A DNA stretch of 15,939 nucleotides from Byssothecium circinans (lineage: Eukaryota > Ascomycota > Dothideomycetes > Pleosporales > Massarinaceae), in assembly GCA_010015675.1 (NCBI GenBank), contig ML976998.1, forward strand, positions 700,259-716,197. Direction: 5' to 3'. Below the pieces are notes generated by a model. It did not search any database. It saw only the letters and a list, made by a program, of their open reading frames with translations, and was not told the origin of the DNA. A program made the translations under genes and the position numbers. Of the stretch, positions 1-15,939 are shown piece after piece. Each line of letters starts with the position of its first letter. Within the stretch, counting starts at the first letter, position 1.

Positions 1-143
1 TCTATATTATATATATCTGTATTTAAAATTTCAGCTTAATAGCTCTTATATTTAAATTGTTATTAAGATAATACAGTTTGATTTTCCTTGCCAAGCAAAA
101 GTAGCCGTCTCGGTGGTTTGGCCGTCTCAGTAGTAGAATACGT
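1..143. mobile_element. Right end of a family-A foldback/MITE-like element (copy A4)
   Basis: Bases 1-100 match the right-hand end of the complete family-A element at 2199-2290, sharing a block around 'aaaatttcagcttaatagct' followed by a TTGATTTTCC-CCAAGC block. Beyond that the terminus is a diverged variant, with two 'gccgtctc' sub-repeats where the complete copy has 'tgcgcggttcgg'. It ends in ACGT followed by TA at 144-145, the same terminal bases and presumed TA target as the complete copy. The rest of the element lies to the left of the window. No coding capacity is visible. Confidence 0.75.
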
Positions 144-145
144 TA

Positions 146-917
146 CCTAATTATCTTAATTAACCTATACTAATCTACTATTCTAATATAGTTCTCTACT
201 ATCTTTAAATAGTTTATTCTAGACGTTCTAGTCTTACTATACTTATATAGTTCCTTATAGTTTATTACTATTTAAGAACTATCCTATATTACTTTAGTAT
301 TAAGTAAGTAACTTAAGCTAAGTACTAAGAGTATTCTTACTATATAATAGTATAAGCTTTATACTTAAAGCTTCTAAAGCTTAGGGGGTAGAGCTTATAG
401 TACTAGTCTAAATAGTTCTAAACTATTTAGAACTATTCTTAATTTATTTAACCTACTATATTAGATACACCTTATTATTTTCCTATCCTAGGTTTAAGGT
501 AATTACTAAGTCCTCTCTCTTTATTCTAATTACTACGTAGCTATATAAGAACCTGCTAGCCTTTAGAGGCTCCTTCTTATTACTATTCTCTTACTAGGTT
601 AGGTATTTTACTAGAGTTACCTTATATCTATATTCTTCTTCTTCTCTTTAGTCTTACTTTCCTTAACCTACTAAAGGGGTAAGAAGTATACTATACATAC
701 TATTTCTTATAGTTCTTAATAGTTCTTTTATCTTACTAGCCTTCTAGCTAAGCTAAGGGGGTGTATTAGACCTATAGTACTAAATAGTTCTCTACTATTC
801 TCTAGCTTTATCTAGCCTAGCTTTAGCCCTTTACTTATATAATCTAGCCTCCTAAGCTTTACTACTTTATACATAATTCATTCTTTTCTCTCTATGCTCT
901 TAGTGCTTAGCTATCTA
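146..917. other. Unassigned RIP-mutated flank with no complete gene
   Basis: This extremely TpA-rich stretch lies between the family-A end and the first transposase relic. It contains a copy of the dispersed palindrome (411-437) and a minus-strand coding-like segment listed separately. I found no terminal inverted repeat, LTR or recognisable domain in 146-430 or 833-917. It may be the remains of another transposon truncated at both sides. Confidence 0.5.
430..832 (-). pseudogene. Unidentified coding-like relic, possibly the C-terminal part of a DDE transposase
   Basis: Read on the minus strand from 832, one frame gives a plausible basic protein once TAA/TAG are treated as mutated Gln/Trp codons. 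It contains ENSRELF, then HPLSLARRLVR, then a lysine cluster (TKEKKK) and an arginine-rich stretch (KRIVIRRSL). The plus strand is correspondingly pyrimidine-rich here. The layout of a basic, charged tail after a 'NSREL'-type motif resembles the region behind the DDE domain in fungal pogo-like transposases, but no catalytic motif is present and I would not rely on that family name. It is truncated on both sides and could equally be part of an unrelated retroelement gag. Confidence 0.3.
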
Positions 918-2325: not shown

Positions 2326-3090
2326 CTAGTATACTTATTATATCTCCTTTAGCTACTTAATATAGTATTATTCTTACTACTTAAGTATAAGTACTCTAAG
2401 ATTATTCAGGACTTAGTATACTAATATATCTTTTATATTAATAAGGAAGCATTCCTACTAGCTTTTAAAAATATATTTTTAAGTATATTTATAGTTTAGA
2501 ACTATTAAAAGGCCTTTAAGGCATTAGGGCTAGTCCCTTTAAACGCGTAGGTAGTACTTAATTACTTTAATATATATATATATACTTTACTAGGACCCCT
2601 ACTACTAGAGATACTATAGCTATTAAAGACTCTAAGTAATATACGTAAATTTAGCTTTTAGTTAAAGTTTATATATAATTCTATTACTTATTTACTATAG
2701 ATAGCTTAGGGTAAGCTTTTATAGCTTATTAAAGGCGTAGAGTTAATGCTATATAGTAGTATACTAATAAAGGCGCATATTAAAGAGCTTAAGAACTAAC
2801 TTAAAGTAATAACTAAGTAAAAAACATATAAGTATAAGTATATTTAGAAGGGTAGTACTATAGAGTATAGTTCTATAATAGACTAAAATAGTTCTAAACT
2901 ATTAGGAATAGTTTAGAACCTTAAAAGAGTAAGAGTAAAGAGTAAGTATAAGGTATAATAACTAAGTATTTAGTACTATAGTAATTGCAGGAAAGCTATA
3001 TATAATATAAGAATATATTAAGCTAATAAAAAAGGTTCTTCTAAGTTAGAGGCTAGTACTTAGTTTATTATATTAAGTAGTAATATAATA
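2326..3090 (+). pseudogene. Pogo/Fot1-type transposase relic, copy B1, C-terminal half
   Basis: This matches 4084-4594 plus 14098-14345 of copy B2 and is uninterrupted where B2 carries the Helitron, so it serves as the empty-site reference. It begins with the segment for the third catalytic Asp, where 'ctacttaatata' reads L-L-N-I with AAT in place of GAT (family motif Q-P-L-D). It continues through the basic linker at ~2815-2860. It ends with a zinc knuckle near 2970-3020, where 'tatagtaattgcaggaaagc' starts a CX2CX4HX4C pattern with several Cys/His codons turned to TAT. B1's own right terminal repeat is not seen, because B2 begins at 3093 directly after a TA. Confidence 0.85.
2891..2919. repeat. 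Strong hairpin formed by the dispersed palindrome in copy B1
   Basis: The arms gttctaaacta (2891-2901) and tagtttagaac (2909-2919) are perfect 11-bp complements around a 7-base loop. The same site in B2 (14151-14180) is a mutated version. This is the clearest example of the AGTTCTAAA/TTTAGAACT motif family found repeatedly in the pogo copies and at 411-437. Confidence 0.7.
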
Positions 3091-3167: not shown

Positions 3168-4594
3168 ATGCCTTAACTAAATAACACGATACTTGTTTAA
3201 TAAGAAGGGAGAATTAAGCTTACCCTTTAAGCTTACTATTTAGGCTAATTTTAAAGCCTTTAATATACTGCTAAGGCTTTTAACGTTCGCTATTAGACCC
3301 TCTTTTAATATGTTAATAGAATTACCTTTTAACTACTAATAGTTCTAAACTGTTTAAAACTATCCCTAACTAAAGAGGAGATAATTATCTAATATATCCT
3401 TAACCTTAATTTGCAAGGATTCACGCCTACGTTAGGTAAAGTGTTAGATATAGCGAATAAACTACTACGTAAGTAGAGTAGAGAGAACGTTAGCAATTAC
3501 TAGATAAAATAGTTTATAAACTATTTAGAACTATTAAAAATAGCCTAAAACTATTTAAAGGACTATTAGAGGATACTATAAGAAGGTCCTAAAGTAATTA
3601 GTACATAGTTTAAGCTTATAAAGAATACTAAAATTAAGTATAGTATATATAATAATAATATCTACAACTTTAATAAGACTAGCTTTTAGATAGGTCTTAT
3701 TAGTTCTATAAAAGTAGTTACTAGCTTAAAGAGGTAAGCAAGGCCTACTATTATTTAGCTAGGCAATAAAGAGTAGGTAATAGATATCTAAAGTATATAT
3801 TTAAATAGTAAATTTACTCTACTATTTATTATCTATAAAGGACGTGTCTATATCTTTTTGTAGTATTAGGAAGCTAATATACTACGTAATTAAAAGCTCT
3901 CTATCTTAGAGAATAGATAGACGACTAATAAGCTTAGCCTCGTGTAGTTAAAGCACTTTAATACGCATATAAAGGACATAGTAATAGGCGTCTATTAGTT
4001 GCTAATTTTAGATAGCTATAAAAGCTACCTAAATTAAAATTTTAAGGATTATTATTAAGATAATAAGATCCTTATGCTTTATATGCTAGCGCACTTGTTA
4101 TATATCCTTTAGCTACTTAATATAGTGTTATTCTTACTACCTAAGTATAAGTACTCTAAAATTATTTAGGACTTAGTACGCTAGTATATTTTTTATATTA
4201 ATAAGGAAGCGTTTCTACTAACCTTTAAAGACATGTTTAAAGCTATATTTATAGTTTAGAACTATTAAAAGGTCTTTAAGGCATTAGGGCTAGTCCCTTT
4301 AAACGTATAGGTAGTACTTAATTACTTTAATATACGTATATATACCCTACTAGGACCTTTACTACTAGAGACGCTATAGCAATTAAGAATACTAAGTAAT
4401 ACACGTAAATTTAGCTTATAGTTAAAGCTAGTACGTAATTCTATTACTTAATTACTATAGATAGCTTAGAGTAGGCTTTTGTAGCTTATTAAAGGCACTA
4501 AGTTAGTACTGCATAGTAGCGCGCTAATAAAGGCGCGTATTAAAGAGCTTAAGTATTAACTTACAGTAGTAACTAAGCGTAAAATACGTAAATA
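3168..4594 (+). pseudogene. Pogo/Fot1-like DDE transposase relic, copy B2, main part
   Basis: The ATG at 3168 opens a frame that can be followed to 4594 without a shift, broken only by TAA/TAG of RIP type. The order is as follows. A psq-like helix-turn-helix (E-G-R-I-K-L .. A-K-A-F-N-V, ~3200-3300). An HTH_Tnp_Tc5/CENP-B-type domain (~3370-3560, T-K-E-E-I-I, G-F-T-P, V-L-D-I-A-N). The DDE_1 catalytic domain: first Asp codon now AAT at 3672 within Y-N-F-N-K-T-S-F (family Y-N-F-D-E-T-G-F), second Asp intact GAT at 4011 (L-D-S-Y, family L-D-G-H), third now AAT at 4119 (L-L-N-I, family Q-P-L-D). There are 35 residues between the second and third. The enzyme would cut and paste the element at TA sites. 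It is split by the Helitron after codon CGT-AAA-TA. Confidence 0.9.
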
Positions 4595-4600
4595 AGATCC

Positions 4601-4628
4601 TTCTAATTTTCGTAAACGGGAATTAGAA
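4601..4628 (-). repeat. Subterminal hairpin at the Helitron 3' end
   Basis: The perfect 8-bp arms ttctaatt (4601-4608) and aattagaa (4621-4628) enclose a 12-base loop. The hairpin lies six bases from the inferred 3' terminus at 4595. Helitrons typically have a short hairpin a few bases before the 3' end that acts as the transposition terminator; position and size fit that role. Confidence 0.7.
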
Positions 4629-4640
4629 TTTGCGGAGCGA
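4629..4640. repeat. Asymmetric terminal inverted repeat, 3' side of the Helitron
   Basis: The sequence tttgcggagcga is the exact reverse complement of 14085-14096. Here it sits 34 bp inside the element, behind the hairpin, whereas the partner is at the very end. That asymmetry is the ATIR arrangement of Helitron2-type elements. Confidence 0.7.
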
Positions 4641-4821
4641 TTTATCACTTAGGGTAGAGAAGAAGAGTAGTTACGCAATAAAGCTTTTTTATTTAGATAG
4701 TTAAGCTACTTATCCTAGCTAGTATGCTAGAAACCTTCCGTGTTCTAGTCTATCATAACTCCTTAAATTAAGTAGTATAGAAAGCTATACTTTGTAGATA
4801 ATATCCATTTAACGCTAGTAG

Positions 4822-5636
4822 TCATGCCTCATACCGCCTAATACCCTTAAGCTTGATATGTAGGAGATAGGTAGCATAGTAAGATACAGCATTAGGCAGA
4901 CAAGTCCTGCAGAATCTTGCTGTATAGAGCAAGAATCTTGCTAACACTAATAACATGCTTAACGTCCTTAGCTTAAATAGTAACGCGCTTCCTATAGATA
5001 GCACTAAAGTTTATAGCTAAGCACTATTATTAGTAGAGGCTAATACTATACGAATTAAACTAATACCTTGCAAGATGTCTACTAGGAAGGCCTTAGTAGC
5101 AGCCTGTAAGGCGTCTAAAGCCCTAGACTAGAAATAGGACACAAGGTTACTATTTCCCTCTTAATTATTCTATAGCACTTTGCGAACTAATCTCTTAAAT
5201 GGCGCTACTAGAATTAAGTTACCTAGAGTCTTCTAGTAGAAACGGATCTCTGCTAGAGTAAAGGCTAATACTAGTATTAGTCTAGCTATAGTAATATAGG
5301 TTAAAAACTTACTACTAAGCTTACGACGCCTAATGCGAGAGCCTCCCTTGCTAGGGCCTTTGTAGATGGGAGCACGCTCTTTCTATAGCGTAGCTTATTA
5401 GCTTCCGTATTAGTAGCGGTAACCCTCTCTTCTTCTTGCGACCCTTATATAGGTTCGTGCTAGTATTGGTAGGAAGCTTCTTCTAGCCTTTCTTGCAAGG
5501 ACCTAAAGCTAGATATAATTAACATATAGCTAATACTAAGACTAATACCTAGCCTATCTTAGGCGCCATAACTCTTGCTAGCTCTGCTACGAGAAGCCTT
5601 TATAGGTAGCTTGCCTTGATTCTTCTTAGCGGCCAT
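4822..5636 (-). pseudogene. Histone H3-family relic (possible CenH3/CENP-A-like) carried by the Helitron
   Basis: In the minus-strand frame running from about 5530 to the TGA at 4822-4824, residues encoded at ~5260-4985 line up with the H3 fold. The alpha-N helix reads T-L-A-E-I-R-F-Y-(TAG)-K-T (family ALREIRRYQKST). Helix 1 reads L-I-L-V-A-P-F-K-R-L-V-R-K-V (family LLIRKLPFQRLVREI). Helix 2 reads F-(TAG)-S-R-A-L-D-A-L-Q-A-A-T-K-A-F-L-V-D (family FQSSAVMALQEASEAYLV). Weaker similarity continues through helix 3 to L-S-I-G-S (family RRIRG). Loop 1 has about 14 residues between the helix-1 Val and the Phe, against 9 in canonical H3; lengthened loop 1 is typical of centromeric H3. An ATG at 5636 starts a basic, histone-tail-like MAAKKNQGKLPIKASRSR, but in another frame, so at least one frameshift lies between. 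An in-frame tail of ~55 residues follows the fold. Canonical H3 ends there, so this is odd. The gene is inactive. Confidence 0.72.
4898..4954. repeat. Short direct/palindromic repeat in the 3' extension of the H3-like relic
   Basis: The motif gaatcttgctgtatagagcaag begins a repeated 'gaatcttgct' pair (starts near 4912 and 4932). The second copy is part of a perfect 13-base palindrome, gcaagaatcttgc. On the minus strand this encodes a duplicated A-R-F-like stretch within the unusual C-terminal tail of the H3-like frame. Confidence 0.5.
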
Positions 5637-5840
5637 GATGGTATGTTGTAAGGTGTATAAAAGAAAATAAAGTAGACGTAAACTAACTACTTTTTAGTTA
5701 GAAAACAGACGGAAAACTAATAACGTTAATAGTAAAAGTAAAAGTAAGAAATAAAAATAGTAAAAGTAAGAAATAGGTATAGTAATAGTACGTAAGGAAG
5801 TTGAAATTAGTAAGCAATAAAAGGGGAAATTGTAAGAGAG

Positions 5841-5856
5841 TATATATATAAAAAGG
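5841..5856 (+). promoter_or_regulatory. TATA-like element in the divergent intergenic region
   Basis: The run tatatatataaaaagg reads as a TATA box on the plus strand. It is ~780 bp before the first coding-like bases of the plus-strand gene, so a direct promoter role would need a long leader. In this AT-rich, RIP-mutated background the match may be coincidental. Confidence 0.2.
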
Positions 5857-5880
5857 CTAATACTAAGCCTAATACTTTAG

Positions 5881-5903
5881 TTGTAGCTATACTGCAGCTA
5901 CAA
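5881..5903. repeat. Perfect hairpin in the intergenic region
   Basis: The arms ttgtagct (5881-5888) and agctacaa (5896-5903) are exact complements around a 7-base loop containing CTGC. It directly follows a pair of CTAATAC motif units. The function is unknown. Confidence 0.5.
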
Positions 5904-6627
5904 AGCTTTGCGACTACAAAGACAGCAAAATCGCAAAAATCGAGAGTTATTAAAGTGCGGGGTGGTAAGTAAGCGCAAGAGGTAAGAAAGCAACGTAAAA
6001 GTAGCTAATAAAGGTAAGCGGTAAAAGTAAGTAGTAAAAGTAAAAGCATAAAGAAAAGTAAAATAAAAAAGAAAACATTACGTTAGCAAGAAAACTACGT
6101 ATAAAGATAGGAAATAGCTTCTAAAAAGAGACTAATACCTAACCTAATACTATGATTCTAGTATGTACTTATGTAGCTAACTAAGCTGCACACGCTTATG
6201 CTAGAATTATGTCGTAAAGTGTTGAGCGCATTTAACGCACACGATAGGCTAGTAATAATTTCCTGTAATTGCTACCTAGCCCTACTTTTAATTTCGTGTA
6301 ACTATAAATAAACTTATTACTAAAAATTTGCTACTTAATACTACTTTTTATATACTTCTTATATAACATCTACGTACTATACGTAACTTTGCCCTACTAC
6401 TAAATAACGCTTAATACTTACCTAATACATCCTACTAAGCCTTTTTACTGCAATAGTAGACTAGAAGAAGGTAAAGGCTACTAATACATACTTATTAAAT
6501 GTAAGCACCATTAAAAATAATAAACTTTGCGCAAGCAAGTAAGGCGAAGACTGCATGATTTAAAAGGGAAAAAACGCTAATAATAAGGTATAACAACTTC
6601 CCTATACCTAAATAATTATATACTAAC

Positions 6628-8241
6628 TTAGTAAAGGCGTGCTTTACTTTCTAGATAAAAAAGTTCTTGCTACGTATTCAGCACCTGCTTGATAGCGCTA
6701 TAGATGAAAATGAGCGTAAGCAACTTAAAGACATGCTTCGAATTTAGAGTCGTAATGCAGCGCTTAAGGCTAGGTATAAGAAGAGTATTAGTCTAGTATT
6801 AGGTATAACTAATAATACATAAAAAAAGTTAGAATCTGCTCTAGATATAGCTAGCTATGGCATGCACTAGAAAGCTAGAATCTAACTATAAAACTATAAG
6901 ATTAGTCTTTAAGCCTTAAAAAAAGGTCTAGGCACTAGAAGATAAGTTTATACCGCCTTAGTATATTATTAACGCTACCTCGTCTACTATTAATAAGAGT
7001 GTAGAGAGTAGCAAGTCAAGTAAAAAGGGCAAATCTAACGCAGGCAAAGCGGATAAAAAAACGACGGACATTAAAGAGAAAAAAGAAAAATTTGATATAA
7101 TAGTGCCTAACCTAAGCAATAAAGAAAGGAAAGAATAGACAGAGCTTAGCTACTAGCTACAGGTAAAAAGATACTAGAATAGAGAGCTTAACATTATAGT
7201 AGAAAAGTTAAAGATTCTCCGTTATTAAAAGCTAAAAGAATTTATTCTACGCATGTCGTAAAGCATGTTTATTGTAAGTGCAACGTAACTAACCTAATAC
7301 TATAGCTAATACTAAGCAGCGCTATATCTAGTAGCTTAACCTAACACTTAATAACTAAGTTGCTCTTCTAGTAGCTAGAAAGAAGCTAGTGCATTTAAAA
7401 TAAGTAAGTAAGGTATTAAACCTAGTATTAGTCTAGAACTAACTATTAATAGGCTAGTTCTACTTAAAAGGTGTTTAAGAAGACTAAATTAAAGCTACCT
7501 ATGCGATAGGGTTAAGTAAGTGTAGTATTAGTTAGAGTATTAGGCATAAGCTAACTATAATAGATTATTGCTGCAAGGTTAGTACTATAGAAGTTAGAAG
7601 TGCCTTATAGATACCTAATTAGCGTTAATACTAAGTTAAAGATGCCTATTCCGCTATTCCTTATGCTATTCCTTTAATAACAACGCATGCTACTCTCTCT
7701 AATCTACTAAGTATAGCGTGATAAGGATTATATAGACTCTACTATCTAACTTTTTCGCGATAGTAAAGCATGCAAGCTTCTTAGTGCGTATAATCTATGC
7801 ACTATTAAAGACTATAGCGCATATTTCCCTAAGGTATAAAGCGAGAATGCGGGATATACTACAGATCTACTTAACTATATTATTATAGAACTTTCTACAG
7901 AGAATACTTCCCAAGGCGAACTAATAGAAGGTGTGTAAATAGAAGAAAATATAATAAAAGGTATTAAGCTAGAGGTTCCCTATTAAGGCTATAATTATAG
8001 TATAAAAATGCCTAACATTACGAAATTTATAAAGCTTAAAAGGCTAGGCGATAAGAGTAACATTAATCTAAGTCTGTATGTAGTAGATAGTACAGACACA
8101 GAGACTATATACTTTAAAGATTAAGATATAGTTACGGAGTATTAGACTGTAGTATTAGGCGCTCTATCTATCTAAATAGATTAAGGAAACTTTTATAGGA
8201 ATGCTTGTATTATAGGAAACTACCTTCGCAAAACCTCTTAA
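6628..8241 (+). pseudogene. Unrecognised cargo gene of the Helitron
   Basis: I do not recognise this gene, but the coding signal is clear once RIP stops are ignored. Segment 1 (6628-~6905) reads L-V-K-A-C-F-T-F, then L-L-D-S-A-I-D-E-N-E-R-K-Q-L-K-D-M-L-R. The frame slips by one base around an A7 run near 6909. Segment 2 (~6905-7495) is charged and lysine/serine-rich (E-S-S-K-S-S-K-K-G-K-S, then E-K-K-E-K-F-D), then glutamine-rich. A second slip near 7495 returns to the first frame. Segment 3 (7501-8241) has a more folded look (V-P-Y-R-Y-L-I-S-V-N; L-F-R-D-S-K-A-C-K-L-L-S-A-Y-N; L-S-L-Y-V-V-D-S-T-D-T-E-T-I-Y-F) and ends in a cluster of stops at 8239-8250. Total size is about 535 residues. It converges on RepHel, 44 bp away. 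CTAATACTA motifs lie in frame (S-I-S-L-V-L-G). No catalytic motif is evident; it may be a captured host gene or a Helitron accessory gene. Confidence 0.55.
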
Positions 8242-9605
8242 TAATAGTAGTATTAGTCTAGGTATTAGACCTAGAAAATAGTCTGCTATACTATAACGTA
8301 ATAACGTGCCTTATGCTTTATATCCTGCTCTCGCATCTTTAATACCTTGCTTCTTTTTTGCTTTAACTGCTGATAGGAAAATACATCTTTAAACATTAAA
8401 CCATTAATAGTTTTAACCCTTAAAAGCGCAACGTACATTAAGCTAAGGTATTAATCTTGCTTTCTACTAACCGTAATTACAGCCTTATCCACACTTAAAC
8501 CCTAGGATTTATGAACTGTAATAGCCTAGGCAAGTGTAATAGGGAATTAAATACGTACATGTATACTCTAATTAATAGTAAATTCCTAAATAAAAGGAAA
8601 CACTAGAATAACCTTTGTACCATCTAGAAGACTGTAAAGACATAGCCTATCATACTTATCTATAGCGACTAATACCGCCTTTAGTGTAGCCTTGCGATAA
8701 TCCTAAGTATTAAGCTGCTAAAGGATATTGTTGATAACCCCTATAGCCCTATTAACTAAACCACGCTCTATTTAGATATTGTTAAGTAGCATAATCTAGG
8801 CACTAATAAATATAGGGAGCTAGTTATAGAGATTCCCCGCATCCTTAGTAGACACCTTCTCTTAATTTTAACTATTATATATAGCCTATAAAATAAGGAT
8901 AGGCTAGCTAGAGTCCTAGAGGTAGTTATAATTAATAGCAGCTACTTCTATCCTTTTTGCGCATATACGTAAGGTAGAATTAAAGGAGTTCCGTTCTACC
9001 TCGCTAAGCTTAATGTTGCAGCGTTTTATAAAGAGAAGCTAGTCATAGACATTAGGCTTCTCCTTACGAATACGTATAAAAGCATTACAAAAGGAAGCCT
9101 ATTTAGAACCCTGCTAGCGCATAACTACATCTAGAATAATAGTCCTAGTAAATAGTTTATATAGCACCGCACTAGCTATATCTAAAGAGCTATGGCTCTT
9201 TGTAGTATCAAACATAAGCCTTCTTGCAATAGGGGGTAACTAGTAAAAATCACTAGCTAGGATAATATTTAAACCGCTAAAAGGATAGCTAGCCTATGCT
9301 AGAAAGATTTTACGGCACTTTATATTTAACTACGCTAGTGTTGTTAGCCCTACTATAGACTTCTTGTCTATAATAAAGTAATAAATATTAGTAAATAGCG
9401 CTTAGGTCTAAGCTAATGCTGCTAGAGTAAGAGGTAGAAGCACACCACTAAGAGGTTAAATTAGTATGCGGAAGGTAGAGTAAATAGTCTTTCCTAAAAT
9501 AAGAAAAGCAGCTACTCTAGTTAGTACGCACCGTATAATAAGTAATTTTTTCTTTAAAGCCTTTACAATACTATCTATAGTAGAGGTTATAACCTTAATA
9601 GCGTA

Positions 9606-9626
9606 CGTCTTTCTAGTACCACCTTA
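9606..9626 (-). other. Walker A site of the helicase domain, mutated
   Basis: The minus-strand codons read S-(TAA)-G-G-T-R-K-T. The family sequence is G-x-G-G-T-G-K-T, so the Gly before Lys has become Arg (AGA) and one position is a stop. The site would not bind ATP even if the reading frame were restored elsewhere. Confidence 0.85.
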
Positions 9627-10634
9627 GCTGTTAAGGTTAAAAAGAAGCTACTCTAGCCTATTCCTATCTAGGTAGGCTTAATAATAATTAATGATAAGAT
9701 TAAACAGTAGCTACTATTTAGACTAGAAAGTATTAAGCGAGGTATTAAGTCTAGTAGCGTAATTAACTAGATAAGCTATCTTTATCTCCTTCTAATATTA
9801 ACGTGCATTAAGGCCGTAACTATCTTTATGCTTAAGTATGTTCTAATTCTTCTCTAGATTAACTAGCTAACTGCTTAGGTTATTCTTATTAATGATAACA
9901 CTATTAGTACTAGGGAGATAGCTAGCAAGCTTATTCTACAATAACTTATCTACTAAATCTACGTCTTCCTAATCTAGATCTTCTTCCTCGTTTTTAGGTA
10001 ACACCTCTTTAAAGCTATTGGGTAAAGGGTGATTGTATACTAACAGGCAGTTCTAATAGACTTGCAAGAATAACTAGTACTCCTAGCTGGCAAAGGTCTT
10101 TACATCTAATACTTATTAAAATAGATAATGTAGTATAAGCTTAACGCAAGAGAAGTCTTCTCTATCTAACTTAGGAGAGTATAGAGGGTAAAACTTCAAA
10201 ATCCTAGGCCTAGCCTAGGGCTTAACTTAATTTTTTGTATAGTTGTAATAAAGAAGGTAGTCTAAATAAGATACGGCTTTAAGTAACGGAGGCCTCTCCT
10301 TATATTTTACTAGCATAAAACGGCCCTTAGTAAACTAAGGTATATCTTCCTTAAATACTTTATTATTAACTTAATAATTAGCTTAAAAGACGTACGTCTT
10401 AGGCTAATCCTCTTTACAATGAAGGTTAACGTTAAGAATAGTACGACTATAATCTATAAGAAGTAGATTAAAAAGGATGTAGCAAACTTTTTAAGCGCTA
10501 TAGTCCCTCTAGCCCACCAATTTGTTTATTAACTTTGTCGTAAACTTAAATATAGCATTCTCAGACTAGATATAATGCAGTATCTTAGTAGCTATATCCT
10601 TAAACAACATCGTCTACTACTTTGCCTTGCTAAC

Positions 10635-11138
10635 ATATAGACTAACATATTAAATAACACCTACAGTACTAGTGCAAGGCTGTATGTTAGTATTAGCCCG
10701 CTAGCCTAATACTAGAGTTCAACAGTACACGTTTAGAAGTAGATGATTCCGTTAAGCGTAAAGATAATAAAAAAACTTCTTAACTAATTTAGCGAAGTAA
10801 GGATTAGCTGTACGTAGTTAGGGAGTTTTAAAGCAATAGACTATCTTACCCGTCTTCTTATTTTTCTTTTAGTAGTAACTAAGATAACATACATGCATGT
10901 AGCACTTAGTTAAGATAGTAGCAAGTTCGTAAAAGTTAAAAACTATCTAATTAAATGTAAGAGATAAAGGGGAGCTATATAAATGCTCTAGAGCAGCCTT
11001 ATATAGGTTAAGATGAATAGCGCTAATGTAATAGCCCTAATACTTTGCTAATTATTGCTTCTTAAGCTTAGTAGCATTCTAAGCTAAATACTAATTAAGA
11101 TAAGGTGCATCCTTATAGTAGTATAGGCTATGGTTATA
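10635..11138 (-). other. Rep catalytic core: HUH (11138-11130) and Tyr motif (10649-10635)
   Basis: The HUH stretch sits in W-Q-G-R-S-S-T-Y-N-H-S-L-Y, in the place of the fungal Helitron pattern with R-G-S-x-H-x-H-G. The first His is TAT, one RIP transition (CAT to TAT) away. The Tyr region Y-V-S-L-Y-V-S-K keeps both tyrosines and the lysine. Between them lies a Cys/His-containing segment (C-Y-M-H-V-C near 10904-10887), as in Helitron Rep proteins. Confidence 0.85.
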
Positions 11139-12937
11139 AGTACTACTACGGCCCTGCTACTTGTAACAATGCTAGAAGTTAACAAGGTTAAACTTAGGCG
11201 TTATAACATGCTTTTTAAATAGTTTAAATTAACGGTAGAACTAGTAAGCAATAATGTGTAAGTTATCGCGTACAAAATCCTATGCTAGCCTTGCTTGACG
11301 TGCATTAGTTATAGTCTACTACTTAGCAAAAGCCTCCTCTTCTATAAATCTTATAAGATTAGCCTAATAGTAATCCGTAGTAGAGTATATAACAAATAGA
11401 TAAAAACATTGCAGCTAACGAACTTATTAATAAAAGTTAAGTATTAATAATAAGAGTATTAGCTAGGTATTAAGTAGACTATACGTACTATAGCTTTTAG
11501 GTTTATACTCCCCACTTTCTAATACGCATAAGAACTTTAAATAGAGGTAGAGAACTATACTATAGCGTTAATTAAACTCTACCTACTATTAGCGCTGTTA
11601 AACTAAGCTTAAATATCTTTAGCTATTATAGAAGCACCGTCTAGTGTCTTCCTTACAAAGAAACCCGCCTTTGTAGTAGTTTGCCTATGGAGAAGCGTAT
11701 TAAAGGCAACAAAACGGAAACGTAAGTAACAAGCAAAACGTCTATCCTTATAGCTTATTATGTACTAAACATAGTCCGCATATGTAACCTTCTATATTTT
11801 TAGTTGCATATAGTCACTAATTCCATTTAAATACAAGGTAGGAAATGTAAGACTAAGGATCTTTTCCTAATTACTATATTTAGAAATAGGTGTCCTTCGC
11901 ATTAAGCCTATAGTAAGGTAGGAAGGTCTTAATTAAATTTAACGACGCAAAGTCTTAAATTTGCTAATATTAGGAATAATATTAGGAACTACAGTCGTGT
12001 TAGCTCTATTATTGTTATTATCGTCCTTGTCAAAAATCGAGCTACTATCGTAGTAGGAATCCGCGCTAGTATTAAGCCTAGTATTAGGTAGTAACCTATC
12101 TAGTATATAGGCGGTCGCAGTAGGTATAAACGATAAGGGTAAATAGTCTAGCGTATAAGATGGCGATACTAGCTCTTACGTATTAAAATAATCCCTTAGC
12201 CTAATGTCTATATCCTTATGCTAAAGCATAGTAAATTAATCGTCTACATACCTATTAATAAGAAGTTCTTAAATAGCCTTATTATTAATAACAATATTGC
12301 TGTATCTAGAGTAATGTGCCTTTAACTATTATAGCTAACGCAACACTATAGTGCGCCTTACTTTTTAGCTCTTCTTAAATTAACGTTTAACTAAAGCATG
12401 GTCGTCCTTATCTAAATATGGTAGTTTAAAGATAATAATATTAAGCTTAAATAGAAAGATAGGAAGCCTTAAAAATACCCTAGCTATATTAATAGTAAAA
12501 TGACATATATGCCCTCTATACTTATACTACTACCTACGATGCTAACATATCTGCATAAAATAGTAAACCTAGGCAATAAGCATCTCCTTAACATTAGTAA
12601 GAGAAGGGAGGTTAAGCATTACACTTAAATCTATATTATTTGTAGCACTAAATATAGGCACCTAATCTTCTTTAGCACTATATTTAACGTAATTAGTTAA
12701 ATAGGCAGCATATTCCCTACGGCAAACGTTTAGGCAAAACTAACGACGGTTGCAAATTGTACACGTCTCTATCTCTTCTTTCTTAAGTACGTTGTAAAAC
12801 GTAGAGATATACGTTTTATCTTAATTAGATAATATAGGATTAGAAAGATAGGAACTGTCGTCTTAAATTTATAATAAGGGCTCTTCTAGAGAGAAGTCGT
12901 ATATATTCTTTTCCGTCTTTATAAGCATCTCTTTATT

Positions 12938-13039
12938 TATACTATTATTAAACTTATTAACTACATGTTTTTAAGACTTAGCTGCTGCTATACTATTATC
13001 TAACTCGTTAACTACATGTTCTTTAGACTTAGCTGCTGT
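12938..13039 (-). repeat. Two tandem 51-bp units within RepHel
   Basis: The units at 12938-12988 and 12989-13039 share 'tatactattat' at the start and 'agacttagctgctg' near the end. The length is a multiple of three, and on the minus strand each encodes a 17-residue block containing A-A-K-S-x-x-H-V-V-N. This keeps the frame, so it arose while the gene was under selection or by neutral in-frame duplication. Confidence 0.75.
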
Positions 13040-13651
13040 ATAGGTTATACGACTAATACTAGGACTAATACTAGAGTAAGTATCGCGTGATTGCACTAAA
13101 GATAGAGGGATATTCTATAAAATACTCTCTCTTTGCTATTGTAAATACTACGGCTGCGATATAGAATATATCGCGGCTATTTATAGTAATAGTTAACTAG
13201 AAAGCGTTTGTAACGATGATAGGGGTTTAATAAGAGTCGTAGCGCTTAGCAGTGCTAATAGGGGAAGTTAAGATAAGCAAAGTAATAGTAACGTATTTAA
13301 AGACTAAGATAGTAGCCTAATACTAAGACTAATACTAGCTACACGAAAAAGCTACTACTTAAGTAGAGTCCTTAGTGCAGTTAGCGTATACAGCGTAGAC
13401 GTTAGTATAGATTAAGATTAAACTAGCGTTAGAGTATAGAGAATACTAGATAAAAGACTAAAGTCTAACGTTAACGTTATGTAATACTTTATAGGAGGTG
13501 CAGCTTTATGCTCTAACGTATTTGCTTGCCGTTTATAACTTTAAGTAACTATAAGGCAAGCCTAACAGTTCTTCTTTTATTTATTATTGCGAAATTGATT
13601 AACGCTAGGCGTAAGAGGTGTGTTACAGCAATTGCAATGTAAAACATCTAT

Positions 13652-14084
13652 AATAATGTATAAGAGTACATAGATAGAGGGAAGTAGTATTAGGTAGTAT
13701 TACGAGGTATTAGGCCTATAGTATAGCAAATTTTTTCTTTACAACATAGGGTTTAGTCATGTTGCCGCATATAGTAGCTAGTAGACAAAGTAGCATAAGT
13801 AGCTTTTAGACCCTAAGCCCCTATTTCACTGCCTAATACAGGACACGCGACACGCGTATTAGTCGTAATTCCGAAGAACATTATTTAAAAAATACTATTT
13901 TATCTACACATACCTATTACAACGAATTAAATATAGGCTACTATTAGTAGGACTATCAAGAGTATAGTTTTTAGCATATATAGAAAAATCAGCAATAAAA
14001 TTCAATAGGTAGAAGTACGTCAAAATGCGATTTTTTGGAAGCCCTTAGGCGCGATTTAGATTGTAGATTTGCTACGCTCGTTCC
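13652..14084. other. 5' region of the Helitron, upstream of RepHel
   Basis: No reading frame of note is seen in this stretch, which should contain the RepHel promoter and start. It includes a CTAATAC motif cluster (13685-13715, 13826-13840) and, close to the terminus, a CG-containing stretch 'gctacgctcgttcctcgctc' (14071-14090) with repeated CGCTC units. Confidence 0.4.
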
Positions 14085-14096
14085 TCGCTCCGCAAA
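14085..14096. repeat. Terminal inverted repeat at the Helitron 5' end
   Basis: The sequence tcgctccgcaaa is the exact complement of 4629-4640 and lies at the extreme end of the element; the flanking transposase sequence resumes at 14098 (taagtatc). Confidence 0.75.
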
Positions 14097-14097
14097 A

Positions 14098-14373
14098 TAA
14101 GTATCTTTAAAAAGGTAGCACTATAGAGTATAGTTCTGTAGTAGACTAAAATAGTTTTAAACTATTAGAAATAGTTTAGCACTATAAAAAGGCAAGGGTA
14201 GAGGGTAAGCCTAAGGTATAACAACTAAGTATTTGCTACTATAGCAACTGTAGGAAGGCTAAGTATAATACAAGAATATATTAAGTAGATAAAGAGGGTT
14301 CTTCTAAGTTAAAGGCTAGTACTTAGTATATTTTTTTAGATAGTAATAAGGATAATAATAATAATAATAAAGT
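14098..14373 (+). pseudogene. Copy B2 transposase, C-terminal end after the Helitron
   Basis: This continues the gene interrupted at 4594. It reads K-x-L-x-K-G-S-T-I-E-Y from the basic linker, as in B1. It then gives a zinc knuckle at 14240-14281 with pattern CX2CX4HX4C, in which the second Cys is intact (TGT 14249-14251) and the first Cys, the His and the last Cys are all TAT, each one RIP transition from TGT or CAT. A CX2CX4HX4C knuckle at the C-terminus is seen in several fungal pogo-like transposases. An (AAT)n run at 14353-14370 follows, and the true stop is not identifiable. The inverted terminal repeat begins just after. Confidence 0.85.
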
Positions 14374-14440: not shown

Positions 14441-15065
14441 CGTTAGATAATATATTCTACTACCAAGCACGCTATACCACCGAGCGCGCTAGAATTTCTT
14501 AGCAAGGAAAATCAAATAGTATTATCTTAATAATAAAGCCAAACCTTAATATTTTCTTTTAAAATTTTAGACCTAGATAGATATATATATAATCTAGTAG
14601 GTATTAAATCTATATAGCTATATCTTACGTAATATAGTAGTTATTAGTAAGAGAAGAAATCTTAGGTAAAACTTACCTTTACTTATAGATTAATAGCTAA
14701 ATGTTACTAATAGGCTATATAACTTTTAGGACTTACTTATTACTATATTAGTTAGTAGCTATTAAGTTATTATAGCTTGCAGCCTAGATTTAACGCTATT
14801 ATAGTAGGTAGAAGGTAGGAGGTATAAAAAATTAGAAAACCTTCTAAATAAAGTTATATATATTAGAAAGCTATACTTTCTTCTTAAGAGGAGGATAGTA
14901 TATACTAAATAAAGCAATATATAAGTTTAAAGTAAGTAAATACCTTTTAAACTAAAAGATCTGGCTTTAGAAGTATAGGTTTTTATAAAAATCCTAACAC
15001 TGCCTTATAATATAGCTTATATAAGCTATTTTCTTATAGCTAACTATTTATATTACTACTATATA
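14441..15065. mobile_element. Left part of a family-A element (copy A3), interrupted by A2
   Basis: From about 14458 it aligns with the left portion of A1 (1282-1880), through the GGCAAGGAA/AGCAAGGAA block, 'attatcttaataa', and 'gcagcctag'. Its outer end is a distinct terminal variant (CTACCAAGCACGC..CCACCGAGCGCGC) resembling the A4 end at 1-143 in containing 'attctactac'. At 15065-15067 the sequence stops in a TATATA run and A2 begins. The continuation of A3 lies beyond the window. Confidence 0.75.
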
Positions 15066-15067
15066 TA

Positions 15068-15939
15068 ACGTAAAGCACCATCGAACCGCGCAGAAATGCT
15101 TGGCAAGGAACATCAAATAGTATTATCTTAATAACAAAGCTAAACCTTAATATTTTCTTTTAAAATTTAAAACCTAGATAGATATATATATAAACCAATA
15201 GCTATTAAATTTATATAGCTATAGCTTATGTAATCTAGTAGTTATTAAGAAAGGAAGAAATCTTAGGTAAAACCTACCTTATACTATAGATTAATAGCTA
15301 AACGTTAGTTATATACTATATAACTTTTAGGACTTATTTATTAATATATTAGTTAGTAGCTATTAAGTTATTATAGCATGCAGCCTAGGTTTAATGCTAT
15401 AATAGTAGGTGTAAAGTAGGGGGTAAGGAAAATTAAAAAAACCTTCTAAATAAAGTTATATATATTAAATATCTCTACTTTCTTCTTAGGAGGGAGATAA
15501 TATATGCTAAATAAAGCTATATATAAGTTTAAAGTAAGTAAATACCTCTAAAACTAGAAGATCTAGCTTAGAAAGTATAGGTTTTTAGAAAATTTAGACA
15601 CTGCCTTATTATAAAGCTTATATGACCTATTTTCTAGTAGCTAACTATTTATATAGCTTCTATATATATATATAAAGTGTATCTATAGGTTAAAAGTAAT
15701 TATTTCTAAGTAAGTAAAATATTTAATTATATATTCCTAATTTTAGGTATCTCTACCCTCCCTATGCTAGTTCTCTAATAGGTCTAGGCTGCACGCTATA
15801 ATTTTAGTGCTAATAGGTATATTATATATATATAAACTAGCTCTAAAGTTATTATAATTTATTAAGGCTATTTATTAGGTGTTGTAGGGTATAAAGCTTA
15901 AGCGACCCTACTATTCTCTATACTTATATAGCTTACTAA
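15068..15939. mobile_element. Family-A element (copy A2) nested in A3, running off the window
   Basis: It starts acgtaaagcaccatcgaacc at 15068 after TA (15066-15067) and follows A1 closely to the window end, which corresponds to A1 base ~2160, so about 0.16 kb is missing. Both internal inverted arms are present (15375-15388, 15784-15797). Unlike A1 it has a single 'ccgcgcag' unit in the left terminus. The close match to A1's end and the insertion into A3 indicate that A1 and A2 belong to a younger subfamily than A3. Confidence 0.8.

Follow-up and report, generated by a model that had tools for sequence, protein, structure and literature searches.

Does a decayed reading frame close to one end of a Helitron in Byssothecium circinans derive from a histone gene that belongs to the transposon, and if so, what use might a mobile element make of its own histone? 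The question was raised by a stretch of 15,939 nt (C22:700259-716197, referred to as the window), for which the original prediction had proposed a histone H3-like, possibly centromeric gene located inside a fungal Helitron. To answer it, the window was compared with the genome assembly, which comprises 48.4 Mb in 109 contigs. The features identified are compiled in Table 1; the H3-like gene is designated H3L and its divergently oriented neighbour gene 2.

Table 1. Features identified in the window (window positions unless a contig is given)
Feature	Position	Strand	Remarks
Putative Helitron2-like element	4593-14098	minus	9.5 kb; 5' end 14098, 3' end 4593; inserted in another repeat
3' inverted repeat TTTGCGGAGCGA (plus-strand letters)	4629-4640		36 nt inside the 3' end
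H3L exon 4	4892-5016	minus	loop 2, helix 3, C-terminal extension; stop 4892-4894
H3L exon 3	5067-5264	minus	alpha-N, helix 1, loop 1, helix 2; Pfam Histone match C22:705326-705514
H3L exon 2	5313-5508	minus	basic tail; holds the 2-nt deletion private to the window copy
H3L exon 1	5558-5636	minus	basic tail; ATG at 5636, where the annotation of protein P0010 also begins
Gene 2, multi-exon, divergent to H3L	6453-8124	plus	limits estimated visually on C62:5582-7253; borders of the inner exons provisional
Helicase exon of the RepHel gene	8274-9239	minus	C22:708532-709497
RepHel gene (DUF6570, Helitron_like_N, PIF1 helicase)	8274-12670	minus	outer limits approximate
5' inverted repeat TCGCTCCGCAAA (plus-strand letters)	14085-14096		2 nt inside the 5' end
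Heptamer GTATTAG/CTAATAC, 41 copies	4593-14098 (also C62:3720-13233)		often tandem pairs 11-13 nt apart
Uninterrupted copy of the target repeat	2326-3085		relative of 4086-4592 + 14099-14348; repeat families D3, D6

The element and its H3-like gene

The ends of the element were derived from a comparison of its termini throughout the genome, with 27 sites for the 5' end and 30 for the 3' end; a C69 site shared by two overlapping loci was counted once. The element begins with ATTTTGCGG at window position 14098 and finishes with GGATCTTA at position 4593, and in all 27 5' ends compared a T is situated two bases ahead of ATTTT. Its 12-bp inverted repeat is asymmetric with regard to the two ends, and the junction of the insertion in the target repeat fits, as judged by eye, within approximately 3 nt. 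A second copy on contig C62 (C62:3720-13233) aligned with window positions 4593-14104 at 86.9% identity. Pieces of its RepHel gene matched the Pfam families PF20209 (1.1e-22), PF14214 (7.7e-10) and PF05970 (5.7e-11). In the whole genome, PF14214 gave 20 matches, 19 of them above the cut-off, with certain copies matching twice. Judging from Rep, the PIF1 helicase and the asymmetric terminal inverted repeats, the element is probably Helitron2-like, even though its terminal words are not those of FoHeli. AT-rich repeats with inverted ends of the GCCAAGCA..CGGTTCGGTGG type flank the element at window positions 57-171, 1248-1362, 14443-14536 and 15066-15137.

The window model of H3L was transferred from the C62 copy, which is the least mutated of the family. 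The minus-strand block at approximately 5260-4985, in which alpha-N, helix 1 and helix 2 of an H3 had been predicted, covers exon 3 plus the third intron and extends into the beginning of exon 4, in which helix 3 (..AIYRKRVTI*AKDV..) is read after this block. The predicted similarity was confirmed by the Pfam Histone profile, which matched the window exon with 29.5 bits (E 2.5e-5; cut-off 26.4). Joining the four exons of the C62 copy, with an X for its single stop at codon 4, resulted in a protein of 199 residues that scored 88 bits against the same profile (PF00125, E 7.4e-25, cut-off 26.4), and the exon encoding its histone fold contains no stop. The top matches of this protein in the PDB were H3 chains (E 8.4e-23), and in the alignment alpha-N, alpha 1, alpha 2 and alpha 3 are present in the order of H3. 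A chance match of RIP-degraded DNA was ruled out by the score of the near-intact C62 copy. The gene lies, as had been stated, between the 3' end of the element and another gene, namely gene 2.

Altogether, the profile search of the 109 contigs revealed 23 Pfam Histone matches, of which 16 are H3L places. According to their translations, judged by eye, the other seven belong to H3, CenH3 (two exons), H2A (two), H2B and an NF-Y-like gene. Two annotated proteins of B. circinans stem from the family. P0001, annotated as a histone-fold-containing protein, is 100% identical to C62 H3L over 84% of the query, and the final 43 residues of P0010 match the H3L of C26 at 95%. The annotated starts of the two proteins differ, since P0001 begins further down (MAPKK..) and P0010 at the upstream ATG. 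AF2 helices of P0001 at residues 65-81, 85-99, 107-140 and 146-167 are consistent with the H3 order, at a mean pLDDT of only 57.8.

Besides P0001 and P0010, protein searches yielded nine H3-like proteins (P0002-P0009 and P0011) with local identities of 38-58%, none of them a secure H3L relative beyond B. circinans. Canonical H3, which reaches 84 bits against H3L, was also missing from these matches, and for this reason the lack of outside relatives is weak evidence. The viral contigs scanned for relatives of H3L contained none. P0007, an H3-like protein of 236 aa, has QATNLGAIHGKRVTI in common with H3L, which may reflect distant relationship or convergence.

Copies, decay and selection

To determine whether H3L is a resident of the element, 1231 nt of C62 comprising the 3' end and H3L were compared with the whole genome. 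There were 31 matches, 25 of which cover at least 1202 nt; the match at C69:129149 covers 1021 nt, that on C59 675 nt, and four are short. The C59 match represents only a part of H3L at a contig end, without the 3' end of the element. H3L is present in 28 of the 30 matches that include this 3' end, 26 of them belonging to family A and two to subfamily B (C107 and C7). The two matches without H3L are short gene-less derivatives. One (C33:228556-229566) is approximately 1.0 kb long, has both ends but no genes and resembles a miniature non-autonomous Helitron; the other (C17:643637-644195, 3' end at C17:644158) combines the 3' end with 47 nt from the 5' region and is also miniature-like. Thus, H3L belongs to the element family and is no stray host fragment. 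Taking its identity and its residency together, there is hardly any doubt that the minus-strand gene of the window and its family encode an H3-family histone belonging to the Helitron, so that the original prediction of such a gene held both for the histone match and for its presence in other copies of the element. That H3L was acquired recently from the H3 or CenH3 gene of its host was ruled out by its identity to these proteins, which amounts to 52% for H3 and 53% for CenH3 in the alignment.

The 5' region of the element gave 40 matches in the genome, 24 of them essentially full. When ends were paired by distance, 19 family A elements with both ends were obtained, 16 of 9.4-9.6 kb and three longer ones. 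Full 5' ends that stayed unpaired are located on C59, where the element reaches the contig end, at C14:1081903 and C23:107105, and on C30 and C99 (part of the stretch examined). The element is lost before H3L at C14:1081903, C23:107105 and on C30, at element positions 8301, 6964 and 7611, respectively, and none of the matches of the 3'-end query lies near these three sites. At C69:129149-132097, two copies of the element are arranged tail to tail, approximately 0.7 kb apart. Large insertions break up a strongly mutated relative with 72-75% identity to the element, which is found from C17:346171 on.

The H3L copy of the window is dead, as it contains seven in-frame stops (TAA, TAG) and the 2-nt deletion in exon 2, which occurs in this copy only among the 26 aligned. 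Of the 25 copies aligned to C62 (C59 was left out), 23 cover all four exons without any indel; the remaining two are the window copy with its deletion and C69a, for which 25 nt at the beginning of exon 1 are missing from the alignment. The reading frame is interrupted somewhere in every one of the 26 aligned copies. The C62 copy has its one stop at codon 4, where the 25 others read AAG (23) or GAG (one) or are not covered (one), indicating that this stop is private to C62. To assess RIP, differences to C62 were counted in 25 copies (1021-1231 nt each, C59 excluded). Among the 2544 differences, 2400 were C>T or G>A, and only 44 were transversions, 23 of which go back to the codon 4 change of C62. 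CpA was the context of 1000 of the 1301 C>T changes and TpG that of 812 of the 1099 G>A changes, compared to a context background in C62 of 27% of C and 25% of G. RIP has therefore struck the family heavily, and H3L gave these copies no protection in the sexual cycle.

The two subfamily B copies share their last 64 nt with family A at 86% (C107) and 83% (C7) and possess a homologous gene, H3L-B, at the same place upstream. By eye, the two comparable H3L introns interrupt the same codons in the same phases in A and B, and both proteins carry a C-terminal extension (KILAPYSK and KIIA.YIK, respectively). In the histone fold, with stops left out, B is 35% identical to A and likewise 35% identical to host H3. 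As B is no closer to A than to host H3, the common ancestry of the two H3L genes rests on the introns, the position, the C-terminus and gene 2.

Because RIP yields only transitions, transversions were counted by codon position. With codon alignments made by hand and 102 sites for each position, family A differed from C107 by 22/14/38 transversions (p = 0.001) and from C7 by 22/15/41 (p = 0.0004); C107 and C7 share history, so that the two tests are not independent. The excess at third positions, together with the occurrence of H3L in a diverged subfamily, points to selection on the protein and argues against passive capture. It is highly probable, as far as can be judged from these comparisons, that the H3L protein was kept under selection as the subfamilies diverged. 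No helicase could be securely tied to subfamily B. The candidate examined, on C47, shows 19 transversions along a helicase stretch of 966 nt, gene 2 at the same locus differs by far more, and approximately 8.6 kb separate the two.

The heptamer array and gene 2

The element is studded with the heptamer GTATTAG/CTAATAC. Its 41 copies in the element, a count obtained for both the window and the C62 copy, compare to 2.0 expected under a first-order model (100 runs). Outside the element, there are three copies in 6424 nt of window flanks and eight in 9400 nt of C62 flanks, and six host loci taken from the Pfam Histone matches (19,362 nt in total) have none. In C62, 16 pairs of adjacent copies are separated by no more than 25 nt, and in 11 of these both lie on the same strand at a distance of 11-13 nt. 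The corresponding pattern GTATTAG-N3-7-GTATTAG matched 380 times in the genome, its reversed control once. Among 100 pair matches listed of the 380, 90 fall into element copies according to their coordinates, and ten are situated at three other places, two of which are microsatellite-like. Microsatellite-like runs of GTATTAGAACTA beyond the Helitron occur at C3:590273-590351 and C7:131977-132019.

Within H3L, the 600 nt of exons are devoid of heptamers and each of the three introns harbors two. Gene 2 shows a similar picture, with none in the exons of the models tried and two copies in four of its five introns. Several heptamers are located within open RepHel frames, where they are read as PNT codons (by eye), and hence the array is not restricted to noncoding DNA or introns. 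The density is maintained in subfamily B, with 17 heptamers in 2654 nt (C107) and four in 663 nt (C7); C7:1-914, for the most part not matched to B, contains none. In the stretch that can be aligned between A and B (54% identity), all five heptamer sites are identical, compared to 28 of 703 7-mers, those five included (p = 1e-7). Since the heptamer comprises neither CpA nor TpG, it cannot be altered by RIP. This dense array is a likely candidate for a docking array of a protein of the element, either the gene 2 product or RepHel.

Gene 2 itself, with the query joined by eye, gave no Pfam match above the cut-off and no recognised DNA-binding domain, and among 7994 scored candidates no homologue was found at E ≤ 0.001. 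The exon borders as first listed do not join in one frame; when models that stay in frame were sought, several equally good ones with five stops were obtained, the ambiguity concerning the exon 3-4 junctions. A relative of gene 2 on C47, which has introns 1 and 2 in place, is located in subfamily B-like DNA, as 771 nt next to it match C107 at 89%. In exons 1 and 2, transversions by codon position amounted to 15/13/25 of 85/85/84 sites (p = 0.025).

Possible functions and related systems

Of the roles suggested in the original prediction, that of an element-encoded chromatin factor appears to be favored over passive capture, on the grounds of subfamily B and the codon-position test. The best explanation of the data is that H3L is resident in a Helitron2-like family and may act on the chromatin of the element, a reading that we rate at somewhat less than an even chance. 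H3L made by the element would form nucleosomes on element DNA together with host H4, and silencing enzymes of the host might handle these nucleosomes poorly because the tail of the protein, based on C62, lacks the ARTKQT (K4) and ARKS (K9, K27) contexts. HMMER aligned the tail stretch RKKKGG of H3L to RKSTGG of H3 with modest confidence, and it is thus conceivable that a lysine occupies the K9 place. A protein of the element, encoded by gene 2 or RepHel, may dock on the heptamer array and mark element DNA, perhaps for the deposition of H3L. The benefit to the element would be anti-silencing, functionally akin to that of VANC or of transposon-borne TET/JBP, and by this analogy an anti-silencing role of H3L can be put forward tentatively. 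That the element might be a self-marking transposon, whose own H3 variant is recruited through a RIP-proof heptamer array to element DNA only and evades H3K9/H3K27 silencing, is a more speculative proposal which we consider doubtful. If true, it would be the first known transposon encoding a core histone, within the literature searched. A histone under selection in a mobile element raises the question whether a parasite may alter its own chromatin by histone replacement as opposed to the editing of marks, and the heptamer array offers a handle for finding an element protein that recognises element DNA.

Alternatively, H3L might be loaded like CenH3 and direct insertion to centromere-like chromatin or stabilise circles via such chromatin. 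Between VRE and RFQS, loop 1 has 14 residues in H3L, nine in host H3, 12 in host CenH3 and 15 in cnp1, which bears out the predicted extension of about five residues relative to H3 and makes the loop two residues longer than in host CenH3. H3L and host CenH3 also have the APF and EAFLV residues in common, and CenH3/CENP-A proteins resemble H3L in their longer loop 1 and divergent tail. However, the residue before Q-S at the start of helix 2 is Phe in C62 H3L (FQS), as in H3 and as originally noted, instead of the Trp of CenH3 (WQS). Moreover, the identities to the two host proteins are practically equal, and a tree of 16 rows, whose end branches are long and in which good support is confined to one of the 13 inner branches, gives H3L no firm place, with CenH3 or elsewhere. 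Hence the suggestion of a centromeric histone, with which the long loop 1 alone would agree, was not established from the sequence, and mimicry of CenH3 is unlikely. The residues H113, R116 and D123, which we take to be those of H3, are retained in H3L.

An equally unlikely alternative is that H3L and host H4 wrap the rolling-circle intermediate or its nascent second strand. H3L as a resident gene of the element would suit such a packaging role, and joined-end amplicons of related Helitrons suggest circles (excerpts of PMC5148889). On the other hand, there is no sequence feature specific to this role, and host H3 would suffice for it. H3L might also enter host chromatin broadly and weaken the silencing of all repeats, like single viral histones; according to excerpts of PMC9145170, the H4 of bracovirus becomes part of host chromatin, and the same appears likely for single viral H3s. 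Such a poison subunit seems quite improbable, as the element-specific heptamer array suggests self-targeting. The poorest candidate, with little to recommend it, is the passive capture of a host H3 or CenH3 gene by end-bypass and its subsequent hitch-hiking: H3L does adjoin the 3' end, where this mechanism deposits sequence (excerpts of PMC5148889), and short derivatives without H3L exist (C33; C17, 3' end), but the Pfam Histone matches of the genome include no donor closer than host H3 and CenH3, the introns of these two genes lie, by eye, at other positions than those of H3L, and the third-position excess of transversions between the subfamilies speaks against it.

The preferred reading, a resident histone with a possible chromatin role, can be compared with several known systems. 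A literature search, whose coverage left out most subscription journals, found no report of a transposon carrying a core histone, and the word "histone" is absent from the main text of PMC5148889 and PMC4289320. In its general organization, the element resembles FoHeli/Helitron2 of Fusarium oxysporum as described in excerpts of PMC5148889. Both have a Helitron transposase, the 9.5 kb of the present element fall within the range of approximately 5-11 kb given for FoHeli, and FoHeli1 and 2 likewise possess a 12-bp asymmetric terminal inverted repeat, the 3' copy of which lies approximately 20-50 nt inside the end (36 nt here). By contrast, FoHeli elements end with TCAG...ATTTT or TGCCT...CTCCTGT and the element studied here with ATTTTGCGG...GGATCTTA; FoHeli3 has an extra ORF described in the same excerpts as lacking known domains, and the element studied here carries H3L and gene 2.

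The heptamer array recalls VANDAL21 of Arabidopsis, where, according to excerpts of PMC5735166 and PMC10398659, VANC21 binds the motif YAGTATTAY in noncoding element DNA, often in tandem repeats. This motif and RGTATTAG of our element have the core GTATTA in common, a likeness that may be due to chance. Unlike in VANDAL21 (excerpts of PMC5735166), whose short motif is found in noncoding DNA, some of the sites are located in coding frames, and no VANC homologue was identified in the element.

Single viral histones, such as the H3 of xenomavirus and the H4 of bracovirus (excerpts of PMC9145170), are similar to H3L in that a lone core histone, sometimes with a divergent tail, is carried on a mobile genome. 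They are mostly 73-89% identical to the eukaryotic fold, compared to 52-53% for H3L, whose carrier is a transposon. As to cargo genes, TET/JBP dioxygenases and SET methyltransferases, the latter in oomycete transposons (excerpts of PMC12730594), and VANC-type anti-silencing proteins (excerpts of PMC5735166) are known from transposons. A further parallel is offered by the fungal transposons that carry TET/JBP genes (excerpts of PMC12730594). They include Helitrons, those of P. graminis and Pezizales being described as Helitron1, with Helitron2 also listed, and have likewise captured a chromatin-related gene thought to counter silencing; the captured gene encodes a dioxygenase there and a histone in the element of B. 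circinans.
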